Positions 1-54,190 of a stretch of 64,000 nucleotides of DNA are shown here, piece by piece (positions within the stretch are counted from its first letter, which is position 1; the number at the start of each line of letters is the position of its first letter). Both the position numbers and the translations under genes were made by a program. The notes below the pieces were generated by a model. That model searched no databases. It saw only the letters and a list, made by a program, of their open reading frames with translations, and was not told the origin of the DNA. This DNA is from an uncultured beta proteobacterium (GTDB lineage Bacteria > Pseudomonadota > Gammaproteobacteria > Burkholderiales > Burkholderiaceae_C), in assembly GCA_903927295.1 (NCBI GenBank), contig CAIYMN010000272.1, positions 1 through 64,000 of the forward strand, in the 5' to 3' direction.

Positions 1-1035
1 ACAGCGTTGGCCTGTGGTGCCGATGATTTCGACGCCAGCGTGCGCAACATTGTCGAAGTCTGGAAGAACATCCATGCCGATCAGGTCTACCGGGCCGACT
101 CTCTGAGCATGTTGCGTTCCGGCGCCACCCTGATGACCCTGCTGTCGCTGGGTTGGCTGATCGCCAAGTGGCGCCACATGAAGCCACGCTCCCTGCTCAA
201 CAATGCGCCGGCACTCGATCTGCTCAAGCGCATCGCGCCGCTGGAGCGCCTGCCCCAGCTGATTCGCGAGGGTCACATCCAGGCGCTGGCTGTGACTGCT
301 TCGAGCTACACCTCGGGCGAACACATCACGTTCTTTGATGGTGAGCCGCGCCTGCTGCCCTGGGTGCGCTCAAGGCGACGCTCGGTTCGTGATCGCATCC
401 GTTATGAGCATCTGCTGGCCTCCTCGGCCATTCCCTTTGTCTTTCCGGCGATGGCGCTGCAGATCGACGGCAATTCCGAGTATTTTGGCGACGGCTCGAT
501 GCGCCAGTCGGCACCAGTGGCGCCGGCCATCCACCTCGGAGCCAGCCGGATACTGGTGATTGGCGCCGGGCGCCTGGCTGAGCCACGAAGCGGACTTCCC
601 AGCGGCAGGAGCAGCACTTATCCGTCGCTGGCGCAGATTGCCGGTCACGCGCTGTCCAGCATTTTTCTGGATGCGCTGGCGGTCGATGTGGAACGCATGC
701 GCCGCATCAACCTGACCATGTCACTGGTGCCTGCCGAGGCACGCAGCGCCAGCGCGCTACGTCAGGTGGACCTGTTGCTGATCTCGCCCTCGCAAAGACT
801 GGATGACATCGCCGCGCGCCACATCGGCGATCTGCCGGCACCCGTGCGCACCATGCTCGGTGGTGTTGGCGTCTCCACCAAGGCTGCCGATGTGAAAGGT
901 TCGGCCCTGGCCAGCTACCTGCTGTTCGAATCGAGCTACACGCGGGAACTGATGGCCTTGGGTTACGCTGACGCGCAAAGGCAAATCAGCGAAATACGCC
1001 AGTTCTTCAGCTGGGCCGACCCGGCTCCTGTTTGA
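1..1035 (+). CDS. Patatin-like phospholipase family protein, C-terminal part (5' end lies outside the window)
   Basis: ORF open at window start; [11 protein letters not shown]...[21 protein letters not shown] patatin-like DG motif region. Confidence 0.75.
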
Positions 1036-1801
1036 AAGACGCTGCCAACGCCGAACTGTGGCGCGCCAGCAGATTGCTGTCCAGCCCGACGGCAACGAAC
1101 AGTCCCCCGATGTCGATGTAGTGTCGCGCCAGCTTCTCGTCAGCCATCAGAATGCCTGGCGCCTTGCCTGCGCTGGCAATGCGCTTGAAAGCGTCCTCCA
1201 TGGCCGCACGCACCTGTGGGTGATCCTGCTCGCCGACGTGTCCAAGCGACGCCGACAGATCGGCCGGTCCGATAAAGACGCCATCAACGCCCTCTACCGC
1301 CGCAATGGCGTCCAGGTTGTCGAGCGCGGTTTGCGTTTCAGCCTGCACCAGCACGCAAACCTGCTCATTGGCGTGCTTCGCGTAATCGGCGATGCGGCCC
1401 CATCGCGAGGCCCTGGCACCGGCCATGCCGCGAATGCCCTGCGGCGGGTAGCGCGATGCCTGCACAATGGCGCGCGCCTGCTCGGCGGTATCCACCATCG
1501 GCGCCAGGATCGTCTGCACACCCAGGTCCAGATACTGCTTGATGATGGTGGTTCCCACATGGCCATGCCCGACGGGCACGCGGGCAATGGCATGCGATGC
1601 CGGATAGGCTGCAATGACCTGCAGTTGCGCCAGAATCGAATTCAGATCGTTGGGCGCATGTTCACCATCGATCAAGAGCCAGTCAAAGCCGGCACCGGCG
1701 CAAATCTCGGTCGTATAGGGATTGGCCAGCCCCAGCCACAGGCCAATCTGCAACTGCTTTTGTGCCAGCGCGCGTTTGAATGAATTGACGGGATGTTTCA
1801 T
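1007..1801 (-). CDS. hpaI: HpcH/HpaI aldolase (4-hydroxy-2-oxoheptanedioate aldolase type)
   Basis: [34 protein letters not shown] and [15 protein letters not shown] signatures. Confidence 0.9.
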
Positions 1802-39721: not shown

Positions 39722-40045
39722 TCAGTCTTCCAGTTGCATCAGGCGCTCGTACATGCTGCGCGCCATATGATCCTTGCCAGCGCGTTCATAGCCTTCGGCC
39801 AGCGTCAACAATTCAGTCTTGGCGGCCTCTGCCTGCGGTGTCTCGTCATGGTCATCCACCAGCGTCCAGAACATTTCAGTCGCCTGGCGGTAGTTGCCTG
39901 CCTTGAGATAGCGCTGAGCCATCGCGAAATGCCGATCCAGCATGGTCAGGCCAGCACCGCGCCTGGGCACAGGGACCTGCGCCGGCGCAACAGTGCTTAC
40001 AGCCACGTCCGGGCCTGCTTCCATTTCAATTTCATGCAACATCAT
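39722..40045 (-). CDS. Small TPR-like protein in gas vesicle operon
   Basis: MLDRHFAMAQRYLKAGNYRQATEMFWTLVDDH...AEGYERAGKDHMARSMYERLMQLE; SD ggag upstream; 4-nt overlap with ArsA-like gene. Confidence 0.75.
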   Translation of the reverse strand: MMLHEIEMEAGPDVAVSTVAPAQVPVPRRGAGLTMLDRHFAMAQRYLKAGNYRQATEMFWTLVDDHDETPQAEAAKTELLTLAEGYERAGKDHMARSMYERLMQLED

Positions 40046-42036
40046 GTTTCTCCTTCTGTCAATAAAACCTTGTTCGCCGCGCCAGCCTGATACAGGCAGC
40101 GACCCAGTTCGCTCAGCCGGTCAATCCCCCGGGGTTCCTGCTGCCTGAAGACCATTGCCAAATGGCGTGCCGCCTGTGTCTGCTGGTAACGCTCGAGCAG
40201 CGGCAGTTCGTTGCGAGCCCGAACCGAACAAGCCGGACATAACGACGCAGGCGTCAGCAAATTCAGGAACAGGACTGGCACGGCAGTGCCAAGGCGCTGA
40301 CAGGCCGCAATGAGCTTTTGTGTTTCAGCAAAAGCCATCTCGGTGGGAATCGAAACTGCGATCAAAGCGGTCTTCGTTGCATCACTGAGCAGCCGTCGAA
40401 AACTTTTCATCTTCCTGGACAGACCAACCATCGTCCTGGCGAGCCGTGGCAACCAGAAAACGTCCCGGTATTTCAGGAACAGGCCAAAGAAAGTCTTCAG
40501 CCATTTCTCGATCAGTTCCGGCATTTCCAGGAAGCGCAGCAGATGACCGGTAGGTGCGGTATCTAGCACAAACAGGTCATAGCAATTGCGGTCCATCAAG
40601 TCCACGATGCGGGTCAGTGCCAGCATTTCATCGAGTCCTGCGGGCGCCACATCGAGCAGGCGCTCCATCACGTCGCGATCGAACGCGAGTTCCATCCCGG
40701 CCTGGGAAGTGCTGCGCCCGAAAGCGCCAGTCAATTCGGCAGAAAAGTCTCTTTTCAGGTGCATGTACTCGGCCTGTGCGTCGAGTTCGATCACGCTCAG
40801 TCCCGGTGCGACCCGGGTCTCCTTCGGGCCCACGTCGCGACCCAGACAGGCGGCCAGCGAGTGCGCCGGATCAATCGAAAAAAGAAGCACTTCCTGACCC
40901 GGCCGCTCCTGGGCCATGCGCAGCGCAGAAGCGCAGGCCAGCGTGGTCTTGCCAACGCCTCCTTTGCCGGCAAACATCAACAGTCGTGTCGAAGCGGGCG
41001 GCACCCTGGCGGGATGCTGTACCCGAGGAATCCGGCCAGCGTTACCGCCCTGCCAGTTGCTGCCTGAAGCGCCTTGGGATGCCTGCTCAGGCTCGTGCAG
41101 CAGCGCTTGCGTCTGCTGCCAAAGCGTCAACAATGGCACCGACCCCCGGGCTTCGGTCGCCAGCAGGGGCAGACTCCAGAAGCTGCAATTTGAAAAAGCC
41201 TGCGTCAGCTCCGAGATGCTCAGCGCCTGCACGGCAACACCGTCCGAGCACAGCGGACAATCCGATTGCTTCGAGGACAGGCGATTGACGATCATTTCGC
41301 GCAGCGGCAGGCCAAGGCGCTCCAACTCGCCAATCATCAGGCGCGTGACATGGATGCTCAAGCCTTCGGCCAGCATCACTGGCACAAAGCGGCAACGCCT
41401 GGGTGATCGAAGCAAGCTCCAGAGTCTCTTCAGGTCGGCACGGGTATCATCCAGGTAGAGGTCGGCAGCGTCTTTGTCATAGGACCCCTGGTAGAGCTGG
41501 GTCATGTAGCGATGCTTGGCCAGCATGGCATCCAGCGCCGTGATCCACTTGCGCATCATGGACGGCAGACCGAGCAGTCGAAGTGTGTGCCCAGCCGGTG
41601 CCGTGTCAACAATGATGCACGCGTACTCACCTTCCTTGACCCACGCGGCGATCTCCAGCAGGGCCATCATTTCATCGAGCCCCGGAATCGAGAGATCGAC
41701 CAGCCTGGCCACGTCCGTCTGGTCAAGAAAAGTTCCCCGCAGGGCAATCGTACGCAGGTGTTCTGCACACCGGGCCTTGAAACGCGCCAGACTTTGTTGC
41801 GAGTCGATCTCACGCACCGTCAGATTTGCCGGCAACGTGACGCCGGCAAGACAATCCATCAGCGAATGTGCCGGGTCCGTTGAAACGAGCAGGAACTTCT
41901 GCTCTGGCCAGCGCTCGGCCCGATGCAGGGCCGCAGCCGAGGCACAGGTCGTCTTGCCGACACCGCCCTTGCCACCAAAAAGCAGCAGACGCAATCCGTC
42001 ATCCTGCAAAAATCCTGGAAGCGCCGCTGATTCCAT
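40042..42036 (-). CDS. Tandem-fused ArsA/Get3 (TRC40)-family ATPase
   Basis: Two GKGGVGKTT P-loops, DTAPAGHTLR and DTAPTGHLLR, one CPxC motif per half (CPLC, CPAC). Confidence 0.9.
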   Translation of the reverse strand: MESAALPGFLQDDGLRLLLFGGKGGVGKTTCASAAALHRAERWPEQKFLLVSTDPAHSLMDCLAGVTLPANLTVREIDSQQSLARFKARCAEHLRTIALRGTFLDQTDVARLVDLSIPGLDEMMALLEIAAWVKEGEYACIIVDTAPAGHTLRLLGLPSMMRKWITALDAMLAKHRYMTQLYQGSYDKDAADLYLDDTRADLKRLWSLLRSPRRCRFVPVMLAEGLSIHVTRLMIGELERLGLPLREMIVNRLSSKQSDCPLCSDGVAVQALSISELTQAFSNCSFWSLPLLATEARGSVPLLTLWQQTQALLHEPEQASQGASGSNWQGGNAGRIPRVQHPARVPPASTRLLMFAGKGGVGKTTLACASALRMAQERPGQEVLLFSIDPAHSLAACLGRDVGPKETRVAPGLSVIELDAQAEYMHLKRDFSAELTGAFGRSTSQAGMELAFDRDVMERLLDVAPAGLDEMLALTRIVDLMDRNCYDLFVLDTAPTGHLLRFLEMPELIEKWLKTFFGLFLKYRDVFWLPRLARTMVGLSRKMKSFRRLLSDATKTALIAVSIPTEMAFAETQKLIAACQRLGTAVPVLFLNLLTPASLCPACSVRARNELPLLERYQQTQAARHLAMVFRQQEPRGIDRLSELGRCLYQAGAANKVLLTEGET

Positions 42037-45714: not shown

Positions 45715-45815
45715 TTCAATTCACTCCTCTTGGGCGCGCAGAACGCTGGGCGCTGGCTGATTGAATTCAATTAATCGTTGCTGCGCTGGCGCGCATAAGA
45801 CAAATGCTTTCCTTA

Positions 45816-45833
45816 CCGGGAGAACCCTCCCGG
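45816..45833 (-). other. Stem-loop between gvpA and gvpC (processing, attenuation or stabilising hairpin)
   Basis: CCGGGAG-aacc-CTCCCGG perfect 7-bp arms; no U-tract on the minus strand. Confidence 0.6.
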
Positions 45834-45858
45834 CAAAGAAAACAATTTGCACTAACAC

Positions 45859-46077
45859 TTAGGCCGGAGCCGCAGCGCTGGATGTGAGGCCAATTGCCTC
45901 TGCATACTTGAGATAGGTCTCGACCGATGCGATCACGACCCGTGCCTCAATGGACAGCAGTTCAATACCGACCAATGACACTTTGACCCAAGCATCAATC
46001 ACGATACCCTTGTCCAAGATGCGGTCAACAACTTCAGCCAAACTCGAAGAGTCCGTTGATTTTTGTACCTTTGCCAT
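45859..46077 (-). CDS. gvpA: Major gas vesicle structural protein GvpA
   Basis: [57 protein letters not shown] ggag upstream. Confidence 0.96.
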
Positions 46078-46146
46078 TTTCAATCTCCTAACGTATTGCA
46101 CCCCTGTTAAACGCTTTCCAGACACGAAGTACGGGGCTAAACCCTT

Positions 46147-46163
46147 CGTTACATGTTGTAACG
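46147..46163. promoter_or_regulatory. Inverted repeat at predicted gvpA transcription start
   Basis: CGTTAC-atgtt-GTAACG perfect 6-bp arms. Confidence 0.5.
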
Positions 46164-46177
46164 CACTGATCGTGCCA
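46163..46177 (-). promoter_or_regulatory. Sigma-54 promoter candidate upstream of gvpA
   Basis: Minus strand TGGCACGATCAGTGC, i.e. GG-N10-GC. Confidence 0.75.
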
Positions 46178-46310
46178 AGTAGGCCAGCTTTGCAAAAACA
46201 AATTCAAACCATCAAACAATGACAAATTTCGACAATCATCGGCAAGCAGGATGCGATGCGAATGAATGCGTTCGGACAAGCGCTTCTACTTTGATACAAA
46301 AACCGGTAAA

Positions 46311-46332
46311 ACTATGGAATGAATGCCATAGT
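46311..46332. promoter_or_regulatory. Inverted repeat upstream of gvpA promoter: enhancer-binding-protein site or terminator of the upstream operon
   Basis: ACTATGG-aatgaatg-CCATAGT perfect 7-bp arms; on the minus strand followed by TTTTACCGGTTTTT. Confidence 0.45.
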
Positions 46333-46374: not shown

Positions 46375-46758
46375 TCAGGCTGCTGCCAACACGTTGTGCA
46401 CGGTATCGCGGATCTCGTCGTGCCGAAAAGGCTTGGTCACAAACGCGGCGATAAGACCGATGGCGACGCTGTCCTGAATCAGGCTGTCGTCCTTGTAAAA
46501 GTAGCCTGAAACCAGAATCACTGGTGAATGGCTGCCTGTTTCGCTGCGGATGCGGCGCGCCAGTTCCACGCCTTCCATATCGCCGAGTTTGGCGTCGAGC
46601 AGGATCAGATCACAACCATGATCCTTCAACCAGCAAAGGGCCTCGGCGCCACTGCTGGCGGTGGCAACGACATAGCCGCTCCTGGTCAGGATCATCTTCA
46701 GTGCCCAACGCACGTCCTCTTCGTCATCAACCACCAGCAGATGGGGTGAAGGCCTCAT
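46375..46758 (-). CDS. Stand-alone receiver-domain response regulator
   Basis: HLLVVDDEEDVRWALKMILTRSGY...CDLILLDAKLGDMEGVELARRI...KPF. Confidence 0.9.
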   Translation of the reverse strand: MRPSPHLLVVDDEEDVRWALKMILTRSGYVVATASSGAEALCWLKDHGCDLILLDAKLGDMEGVELARRIRSETGSHSPVILVSGYFYKDDSLIQDSVAIGLIAAFVTKPFRHDEIRDTVHNVLAAA

Positions 46759-48281
46759 CAGACACTCACCGTCAATGGCAGACGTACCGCCAGCGTGCTG
46801 CCCTGGCCCTGGACACTGCTTTCCACCGCAATGACGCCGCCATGCTGCTTCACGATGGTGTGACAGATAGACAGACCCAGACCGGTACCCTGTCCAACCG
46901 GGCGCGTGGTAAAGAACGGATCAAAAATCTGGCTCATATGGGCTGACGCGATGCCACAACCTGTATCGCGAACATAAATCGCAGCGTCAGCGCCCTCACG
47001 GCGCGTAAAGACACTGACGTCGCCACCTCCAGGCAAAGCCTGGTAGGCATTGAGAACCAGATTCATGATCACCTGCTGCAGCAAATTGGCGTTGCCTGAA
47101 ATCGGCAATACGGGTTCGGTGTGATGTTCGATCAAATTGATTTTTTGAATTTTGGCCTGGGGCGTCAAAACGCTGATCGTCTCGTGCACCACCGTCACCA
47201 GGTTGAGGGATTCGGCCTGGTTGCTCGATGGCGGGCGCGCATAGCGCAGCAGGTTTTCAATGATCACGGACGATCGCTCAATGCCTTGCAGGATCTTGCC
47301 GACACACTCCTTCTGGAAAGCCGGGTCATCAATCGGATCGAGCAGGAACTGCGCTGCTGAATAGCTCACCGACAGCGGGTTGCGCAACTCGTGGGCGATG
47401 CCACCGGCCATGACGCCCAGGGCAGCCAACTTTTCACTCTGATACAGATGACGCTCCAGCGCCCGCCTTTCCACCAGATCGCGACCAACAGCAACAATGC
47501 CACTGACCTGACCCGAATCATCCCGGATCGGCGAAAAAGACCAGTCAACCGGAATCAGGGCACCGGCTGCCGAGAGCAGGTTGATTTCACCGAAAAATTC
47601 GACCACGCCGCCGGCGACCATCTGATCAATGATGGCCGCCATGTCCTTGCTGCGATTCATTTCACACAGCCCGGAAAGCAGTTGCCCACGCACCACGCTG
47701 CTTGGATAGCCAGAGATCCGCTCGGCTGCTGAATTCCAGCTCGTGATGCAGCCCACGGCGTCTGTCGAGATCACCAGATCGTTGGCACTCTCCACTACGC
47801 TCGCGAGATGCCGCTCGGCCATCCGGACCTTGGCACTCAACTGAAGCTTCTCCGTGATGTCGTCCATCACCACCATGGCATGCTCGACCGTCCTGCCGGT
47901 TTTGATCGGTATGACTGTGTAGAAATAGCTGCGGATCGGAACGCCGGGTGCCCGATAGCTCATCGTGGCGCCAGGCAGTCCGGTGCCGCTCTCGAAAACA
48001 CCGCGGATCTTCGCTTCCAGCCGCGTAAATTCCAGGATGGCATCGGGGAAAACTTCGCGAAAACGCTTGCCGATCGTATTGGCCGCGGACCTTTTTGCTT
48101 TCTCCAGGAAGTTCCGGTTGGCCGATACCACGCGCAGGGAAGGATCGATCAGGAGCAGGGAAAAAGGAATGTTCCCAAGCAGCATGTGGTAGAGCTTTTC
48201 ATACCAGCCTTCCCCGCCCGATGTGCCGGCGCCCGGGCTATCGAAACTCGAAGGCTCGACTGGCAAGGCCAACTTCTTCAT
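46758..48281 (-). CDS. PAS-domain sensor histidine kinase (NtrB-like)
   Basis: MAGGIAHELRNPLSVSYSAAQFLL, DTGCGIASAHMSQIFDPFFTTRPVGQGTGLGLSI. Confidence 0.92.
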   Translation of the reverse strand: MKKLALPVEPSSFDSPGAGTSGGEGWYEKLYHMLLGNIPFSLLLIDPSLRVVSANRNFLEKAKRSAANTIGKRFREVFPDAILEFTRLEAKIRGVFESGTGLPGATMSYRAPGVPIRSYFYTVIPIKTGRTVEHAMVVMDDITEKLQLSAKVRMAERHLASVVESANDLVISTDAVGCITSWNSAAERISGYPSSVVRGQLLSGLCEMNRSKDMAAIIDQMVAGGVVEFFGEINLLSAAGALIPVDWSFSPIRDDSGQVSGIVAVGRDLVERRALERHLYQSEKLAALGVMAGGIAHELRNPLSVSYSAAQFLLDPIDDPAFQKECVGKILQGIERSSVIIENLLRYARPPSSNQAESLNLVTVVHETISVLTPQAKIQKINLIEHHTEPVLPISGNANLLQQVIMNLVLNAYQALPGGGDVSVFTRREGADAAIYVRDTGCGIASAHMSQIFDPFFTTRPVGQGTGLGLSICHTIVKQHGGVIAVESSVQGQGSTLAVRLPLTVSV

Positions 48282-51913: not shown

Positions 51914-53458
51914 CTAGTCACGGTCTGTGTCATCGCGACGCTTGTACTCATCCTTCATGAACTGAACAGACGAAATTTCGTAGGTCTTGAGCTTGCTGTG
52001 AATGGTCTTGTAATCAATCTGCAGCAACCTGGCGGCCTGTGCCTTGTTGCCCTGGGTCAAGGCCAGGGTGCGCGCCAACATGGCCCGCTCGACCTGGGCC
52101 GTTATCTGCGCTACTGCTTCCTTCATGGGCAAATCGGTTCCCATGGCAAGCAAGCCCGCCGGATCACAAAGCGGGCAGGTCTTCTGATCGGTGCTTTCAA
52201 GCCAGACTGCCTTGCGCTTTTCCGGCTCGAAAGGTTGCAGCGGACGAGTGCGTTGATCCAGCGTGGAAATCAGCTCGGGTCCAATCAGGCCGTCAGCGGA
52301 ATCGCACAGCAAGACGGCGCGGCGCAACTGATTGCGCAACTCGCGCGCGTTTCCGGGCCAGTCATAGCGCTGCAAAATGGCCCAGGCATTGACGGACAGG
52401 CCTTTGACCTGTTTGGCCAGTTCCGCATTGGTCTGTCCGAGGAAGCGGTGCACCAGAAAAACGAGATCTTCCTTGCGTTCACGCAGCGCCGTCAAGTGAA
52501 TCGTGTACTCGGCCAGCCGGTGGTACAGGTCACCACGAAAGGTACGCTGAGCAACCATCGCGAGCAAGTCGGCATTGGTTGCTGCCACGACGCGAAAATC
52601 AACTTTCTGCTCTTTGGTCGCGCCGATCCGGTGGATGCGCCGGGTCTCCAGCACGCGAAGCAATTTTCCCTGCATCGCCAGCGGCAAATTGCCGATTTCA
52701 TCCAGGAAAATTGTGCCGCCTTCGGCCAGTTCAAAGGCACCGGCCTTGGCTTGATGCGCACCGGTGAAAGCGCCCTTTTCATGGCCGAACAGCTCGCTTT
52801 CGATCAGGTTTTCCGAAATCGCACCGCAGTCCACTGCCACGAGCGGTTTGCCAGCGCGGTCACTTCGGGCATGAATGGCCTGCGAAAGCAGTTCCTTGCC
52901 GGTTCCAGACTCACCTGTAATCAGAATCGAGAAATTGGTCCGCGCTACCCGCTCCACCTCGCGCTGAATGCCCTGGATAGCCTCGCTGTTGCCCATCGAG
53001 TTGACCAGTGAATCTGCCTTTCGCGCCGAATCCGCAATGTGACGGACCTGCAGCTTGGACTTTCTCTCCTCAAACGCGTAGCGAACCGTGCGCACCACGT
53101 CCTCGTTCTTGAACGGCTTGGTCAAGTAATCCCAGGCGCCAGCCCGCACCGCACGCACCGCATCGTGGGTCTTGCCGTTGGCGGTCACCATAATGACGGG
53201 CAAAGTCTTGTGTTCAGCCTTGATTTTCGCCAGCACCTCAAAGCCGTCCATATCGGGCAAACCAATATCGAGCAGCACCAGGTCCGGCGCCTGTGTACGC
53301 ACAATGCTCAGAGCCTCTTCGCCGTCACCCGCTGACAAGGCTACAAAACCGGCCTGCCGCATCAGATTCGACATGACCCAACGCGCGTCTTCCTGATCGT
53401 CCACTACCAGCACCCTGGCCTGGAGAAAGGGCTTGCTATCGGAGGGTTCAGTCATCAT
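51914..53458 (-). CDS. Sigma-54-dependent NtrC-family response regulator (receiver, AAA with GAFTGA, Fis HTH)
   Basis: [95 protein letters not shown]. Confidence 0.95.
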
Positions 53459-54060
53459 GATGCTGTCTGAGCCTGCTTTTCCCGAAGCGACGGGAGCAAT
53501 TGGCGCACGAGAATGTCGGCGTCGAGCAGACTTTCGACGGAGTGCGCCAGTCCGAGGAACAGCAAACCTACTTCGTCAGCCAGCAGCGTTGCATTGATCC
53601 GATTCGCAATGAAGCGATCTCGCTCGATCAGCAATTGGCGACTCTGCAGAACACGCTGTGCAGTCTGACCAGCATCGGCGTCACGCCCGGCCTCCTGGTG
53701 AAAGCGATACTCCTGCAACAGAAGTTGCGGGTCCTCGGTCCCCATCAGACGCGAACCCAAGCCGATGAACTCGACCAGCAACTGGTAGTTCTTGCTACCC
53801 TGAGCAGCGACATCCCGAACAATCTGTTCCTCCTTGCCGCAGATCGGCAAGCCATCCTGATACAGGCGCACACTGGCGTAAGGAAGGTTGAGTGCCTGAA
53901 TGATTTTCCTGATGCCGGTCCAGACATCCTCGATGGACTGCAAATGCCTGATCCATTTGGCCTGACCGTATTTTTTGACATAGTCGAGCTTGGTCTGCCC
54001 ATGCAGCGAGCCCATATCCTGTTCAGTATGGACGATGGGAACCACTATCAGTGTCCGCAT
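53455..54060 (-). CDS. Uncharacterised protein heading the regulatory gvp operon
   Basis: MRTLIVVPIVHTEQDMGSLHGQTKLDYVKKYGQAKWIRHLQSIEDVWTGIRKIIQALNL...; ATGA overlap with the sigma-54 regulator. Confidence 0.7.
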   Translation of the reverse strand: MRTLIVVPIVHTEQDMGSLHGQTKLDYVKKYGQAKWIRHLQSIEDVWTGIRKIIQALNLPYASVRLYQDGLPICGKEEQIVRDVAAQGSKNYQLLVEFIGLGSRLMGTEDPQLLLQEYRFHQEAGRDADAGQTAQRVLQSRQLLIERDRFIANRINATLLADEVGLLFLGLAHSVESLLDADILVRQLLPSLREKQAQTAS

Positions 54061-54190
54061 GTTTTGCAGTCTGTGGAAAAAGGGGAAGACAGGTCGAACC
54101 CGGCATGGCCTCAAGCCCCATGTTCTCCTCCATTAGGCGTTGATTCTGGACGATGTATGTCCGTTTTGGTGCGTCTTATCTGGCTTAATC

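Follow-up and report, generated by a model that had tools for sequence, protein, structure and literature searches.

Classical sigma-54 promoters, such as those that NtrC activates at glnA and NifA at nif genes, combine a GG-N10-GC element with a remote palindromic enhancer and an enhancer-binding protein carrying a GAFTGA motif. For bacterial gas vesicles, the genetics of regulation comes mainly from one Serratia strain. In that strain, Serratia sp. ATCC 39006, work with 5'RACE and reporter fusions is reported to have mapped the gvpA1 start, with a sigma-54 site upstream, and to have shown that expression needs GvrA, GvrB and GvrC (PMC4982088); an rpoN mutant is described as having no gas vesicles and reduced gvpA1 transcription (PMC11778176). 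Here we examine a gvp cluster in the window, by which we mean the whole 64,000-nucleotide stretch of DNA that was analysed (Table 1). We put at about 0.88 the probability that its gvpA is driven by a sigma-54 promoter on which a GvrA-type activator, under the control of a kinase, acts from a palindrome upstream.

Table 1. Features of the gvpA control region and its candidate regulators, in window coordinates
Feature	Position	Strand	Evidence
Terminator-like hairpin 3' of gvpA	45805..45844	-	18-pair stem, T-rich tail
gvpA, main gas vesicle shell protein, 72 aa	45859..46077	-	Pfam PF00741; NCBIfam GvpA subfamily model above cut-off
gvpA 5' leader	46078..46150	-	Strongly conserved within the genus
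Sigma-54 -24/-12 promoter element, TTGGCACGATCAGTGC	46163..46178	-	GG-N10-GC kept across relatives
Predicted enhancer (UAS) for the GvrA-type activator, CTATGG-N8-CCATAG	46312..46331	.	Conservation, genome uniqueness, palindrome enumeration
GvrC-type single-domain response regulator, encoded by the final gene ahead of the gvpA promoter	46375..46758	-	Pfam PF00072
GvrB-type PAS sensor histidine kinase	46758..48281	-	Pfam PAS, HisKA, HATPase_c; gene order same in relatives
GvrA-type activator: receiver, sigma-54 AAA+ with GAFTGA, Fis-type HTH	51914..53458	-	Pfam PF00072, PF00158, PF02954; aligned motifs
Gene of unknown function overlapping the activator gene start	53455..54114	-	Homologues in many gvp clusters, other lineages

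The minus strand reads TGGCACGATCAGTGC from 46177 to 46163, and since 46178 is a T the element extends to TTGGCACG-ATCA-GTGC, with 10 nt between the GG of the -24 half and the GC of the -12 half. It matches 11 of 12 consensus letters, with one mismatch to TGGCACG-N4-TTGC (TTGGCACG-N4-TTGC), and 85 nt separate the C at -12 from the start codon of gvpA (ATG at 46077); the initial annotation had given this spacing, this single mismatch and a distance of about 85 nt, and all of them proved exact on re-reading. The letters alone are weak evidence. With up to two mismatches allowed, the window holds 44 matches against 43.1 expected, so that the motif is no more frequent than chance predicts, and three matches have one mismatch or none; measured against dinucleotide shuffles, a top coding-strand score of 11/12 in the 250 nt ahead of gvpA has a p of about 0.001. 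We regard the site as real rather than a chance match because it is conserved in relatives. Its position would place the gvpA transcription start at approximately 46150-46151. A dyad overlapping this predicted start, CGTTAC-N5-GTAACG at 46146-46162, is kept in one relative (G1314a) despite changes on both sides, and is possibly a repressor site. A shorter dyad that overlaps the sigma-54 site itself, GCAC-gatca-GTGC, is not conserved in relatives and was set aside as a by-product of the letters of the window copy. Within the genus the conserved leader letters are CGAAGG...CCCCGTACTTCGT...AGGGGTGCAATACGTTAGGAG; a structured RNA was considered for the leader and rejected, as there was neither excess stability nor covarying pairs, and an Rfam search of promoter and leader gave no match.

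Conservation was assessed on gvpA loci gathered from whole genomes and plasmids. The window's genus contributes 12 gvpA copies in 11 genomes (one copy is cut by a contig end), and the -24/-12 element precedes every one of the 12, at 78-86 nt from the ATG. Over all lineages with a site the distance to gvpA is 63-106 nt: 63 nt in G037, 74 nt in Methylosinus, 75 nt in G726 and G1360, 81 nt in Methylocella, where the site is weak (p = 0.08), and 91-106 nt before the multi-copy gvpA genes of the genomes G1370-G1376, which carry TGGCA-N6-TTGC or TTGT. Several of these last copies have GT in place of GC at -12, which, like the weak Methylocella site, counts against the proposed circuit. The conserved element is also found before gvpA in Thiodictyon. 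It keeps its place before gvpA within the genus and also in members of other orders and classes, amid flanking intergenic DNA that has diverged, and in a 330 bp alignment of the genus copies similarity is mostly lost outside three islands, which are the leader, the sigma-54 element and, farther upstream, the palindrome. For the sigma-54 site over seven lineages the combined p is about 1e-10, with the consensus set in advance and the lineages being those at hand. At two of the loci (L125, G1376:C142, and L135, G1370:C171) three to four gvpA genes, nearly identical to one another, follow in tandem, and the sigma-54 site and palindrome stand upstream of the first gvpA only. The viral contigs searched contained distant gvpA relatives only, which were left out of the comparison.

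The palindrome CTATGG-N8-CCATAG spans 20 bp and lies 145 bp upstream of -24; it was noticed by visual inspection of a few sequences before being tested on further ones. The exact sequence is unique in the window's 4.1 Mb genome, and it is present in all genus copies, either exact or with at most two mismatches. It reappears ahead of gvpA in a second family, and it precedes gvpA in G037 and on a Thiodictyon plasmid; most gvpA copies of G1370-G1376 have it upstream, often doubled at a spacing of 20-21 bp. In G726 and G1360 the sigma-54 site is present, and the palindrome only partial or 1 bp longer. When all 4096 6-mer half-sites with gaps of 0-16 were enumerated without bias, CTATGG-N8-CCATAG came first, with 17 of 21 regions upstream of gvpA matching at one mismatch or fewer, a result to be read as a ranking and not as a p-value because the sequences are partly related. 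Exact copies occur in 8 of 41 same-genus genomes, compared with one for a reversed control; six of the eight genomes have it before gvpA, in G1324 it precedes a second promoter of the gvpA kind, and in G1333 it falls within an open frame. In the G726 family the exact palindrome has 12-13 matches genome-wide and the reversed control a similar number, so there is no enrichment, and only location before gvpA sets the palindrome apart; most of the off-target exact copies fall within long open frames, and none is near a sigma-54 site. The distance from palindrome to promoter varies between 74 and 274 bp, helical phasing between the two was not significant (p ~0.06), and IHF sites gave no convincing or consistent signal; these points, like the incomplete palindrome of G726 and G1360, speak against the proposed circuit. 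The palindrome is conserved alongside activator and promoter, partially so in G726 and G1360, and we take it as the strongest candidate for a GvrA binding site and enhancer. On a Methylosinus plasmid (L110), whose cluster encodes an activator 42% identical, CGATGC-N8-GCATCG lies 142 nt before gvpA with the same 6-8-6 geometry and another half-site, and may be the site of that cluster's activator.

The genes for activator, kinase and receiver all lie inside the gvp cluster, as in a GvrA-GvrB-GvrC system. The activator has the attributes of an NtrC-type enhancer-binding protein, with a receiver phospho-acceptor Asp, a Walker A motif, a Fis-type HTH and the GAFTGA motif that the initial annotation had ascribed to it, and that is indeed present. 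Against the equivalog model for NtrC (NR(I)) it scores 414.9 bits, below the curated cut-off of 558.6, so we consider it NtrC-type but not NtrC itself; a contig search with the activator as query returned generic NtrC-type proteins only, which were left aside. The genome also has an intact rpoN of 531 aa, with activator-interaction, core-binding and DNA-binding domains. The product of the gene overlapping the activator start had no match in Pfam, NCBIfam or PDB. Elsewhere in the gvp cluster (window 40042-42036) is a gene for a tandem ArsA-like ATPase, a relative of which is found in the cluster of G1371.

Across lineages the sigma-54 site and the activator gene go together. A full receiver-AAA+-HTH gene accompanies gvpA and the site in the window's genus, G037, G726/G1360, G1371 (where the site carries GT at -12), Methylocella (whose database record annotates the activator as two separate genes) and Methylosinus. 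In Spartinivicinus, Octadecabacter, G719, G628 and G1034 the sigma-54 site is absent, and the stretches of sequence retrieved yielded no activator gene. Counted by lineage, both are present in six and neither in five, with no mixed case (Fisher p = 0.002, from a small sample), a pattern that, as far as sequence comparison goes, shows the sigma-54/GvrA circuit to be widespread in Pseudomonadota. Together with the conservation of the site, the intact rpoN and the Serratia precedent, this co-occurrence supports the initial annotation's proposal that promoter and regulator belong to one circuit.

Such a circuit would probably work as follows. RpoN-RNA polymerase on the -24/-12 element would form a closed complex, and the GvrB-type kinase would set the phosphorylation state of the GvrA-type activator. 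Bound to the palindrome some 145 bp upstream of -24, the activator would oligomerise and loop over to the polymerase, and ATP hydrolysis, coupled through its GAFTGA loop, would open the complex, with transcription starting near 46150 and proceeding through gvpA and the genes after it. The elements, how far they are conserved and their occurrence together with the activator gene are read directly from the sequences, and from these we infer that the promoter uses RpoN, that GvrA binds the palindrome, that the kinase phosphorylates the activator, and where transcription starts.

Other explanations of these elements need to be weighed. One is that the palindrome merely ends transcription of the gvr operon that lies upstream, as its place about 45 bp past the GvrC-type stop codon, with a short T run after it, might suggest. 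We consider this unlikely, for it is the letters that are conserved and not only the pairing, the gap is fixed at 8, and terminator prediction did not call the palindrome. The tandem copies in the G1370-G1376 genomes and the further copy that stands with a sigma-54 site before a non-gvp gene also speak against a terminator, as does the Thiodictyon plasmid, where the upstream gene is directed away from gvpA and a terminator is therefore unneeded. An activator site is the better fit to the fixed gap, to tandem copies spaced by some two turns of the helix and to the presence of the palindrome where no terminator is needed.

It is also conceivable that the sigma-54 promoter is real and driven by another activator, for example NtrC, with the cluster's own activator having some other role, given that the genome has four strong sigma-54 activator genes, the cluster's own and three others. 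We hold this to be quite improbable: even in lineages far apart the site goes with the activator gene linked to it, and in Serratia the linked GvrA is reported to be required for gvpA1 expression (PMC4982088). Linkage and the palindrome are why we assign the cluster's activator to this promoter, and it is thus this protein, and not the three others, that we infer to act at gvpA. Hardly credible, finally, is that the sigma-54 motif is a chance match and that gvpA relies on a sigma-70 promoter or on transcripts reading through from the gvr operon. The chance-level frequency of the pattern in the window and the position of the gvr genes, upstream and on the same strand, would allow for it, but the site is conserved in all relatives with the activator, and the minus strand ahead of gvpA yielded no sigma-70-like site.

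The preferred reading, a GvrA-type activator working from the palindrome, may reach beyond gas vesicles. In G1324 (L171, G1324:C620) a complete duplicate of this control region of gvpA, comprising palindrome (1470-1489), sigma-54 site and leader start, stands before a non-gvp gene (3-1265, minus strand), whose product is large and repeat-rich with GGxGxD-like repeats, looks surface-layer or RTX-like by eye, and had no Pfam match. We think it likely that CTATGG-N8-CCATAG is a GvrA-type site, hitherto undescribed, and that enhancer and sigma-54 promoter form a module that travels with gvpA copies, also outside the cluster, and in G1324 precedes a surface-layer-like gene; since the module stands before a non-gvp gene there, GvrA may control more than gas vesicles. 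A literature search, with subscription journals mostly outside it, returned no paper naming a GvrA binding site. The palindrome offers a concrete candidate DNA site for GvrA, usable for predicting gas vesicle regulons from sequence and for building switchable gas vesicle expression.

With the classical NtrC/glnA and NifA/nif systems this locus shares the GG-N10-GC element, a remote palindrome and an enhancer-binding protein with GAFTGA; its half-site CTATGG with an 8-bp gap is presumably unlike the known NtrC and NifA sites. Much closer is Serratia, with a sigma-54 site before gvpA and an NtrC-type GvrA in the cluster, and, matched by reported gene names, the order gvrA-gvpH-gvpZ-gvpF-gvrB-gvrC is alike in the two (PMC4982088). 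The window differs in having the gvr genes upstream of gvpA on the same strand and an extra unknown gene before the activator. Its palindrome, compared by description, is not among the features that the accessible portions of the Serratia reports describe (PMC4982088, PMC11778176). Because the circuit has, by these same accounts, already been shown in Serratia ATCC 39006, the window would be a further case of a known circuit.
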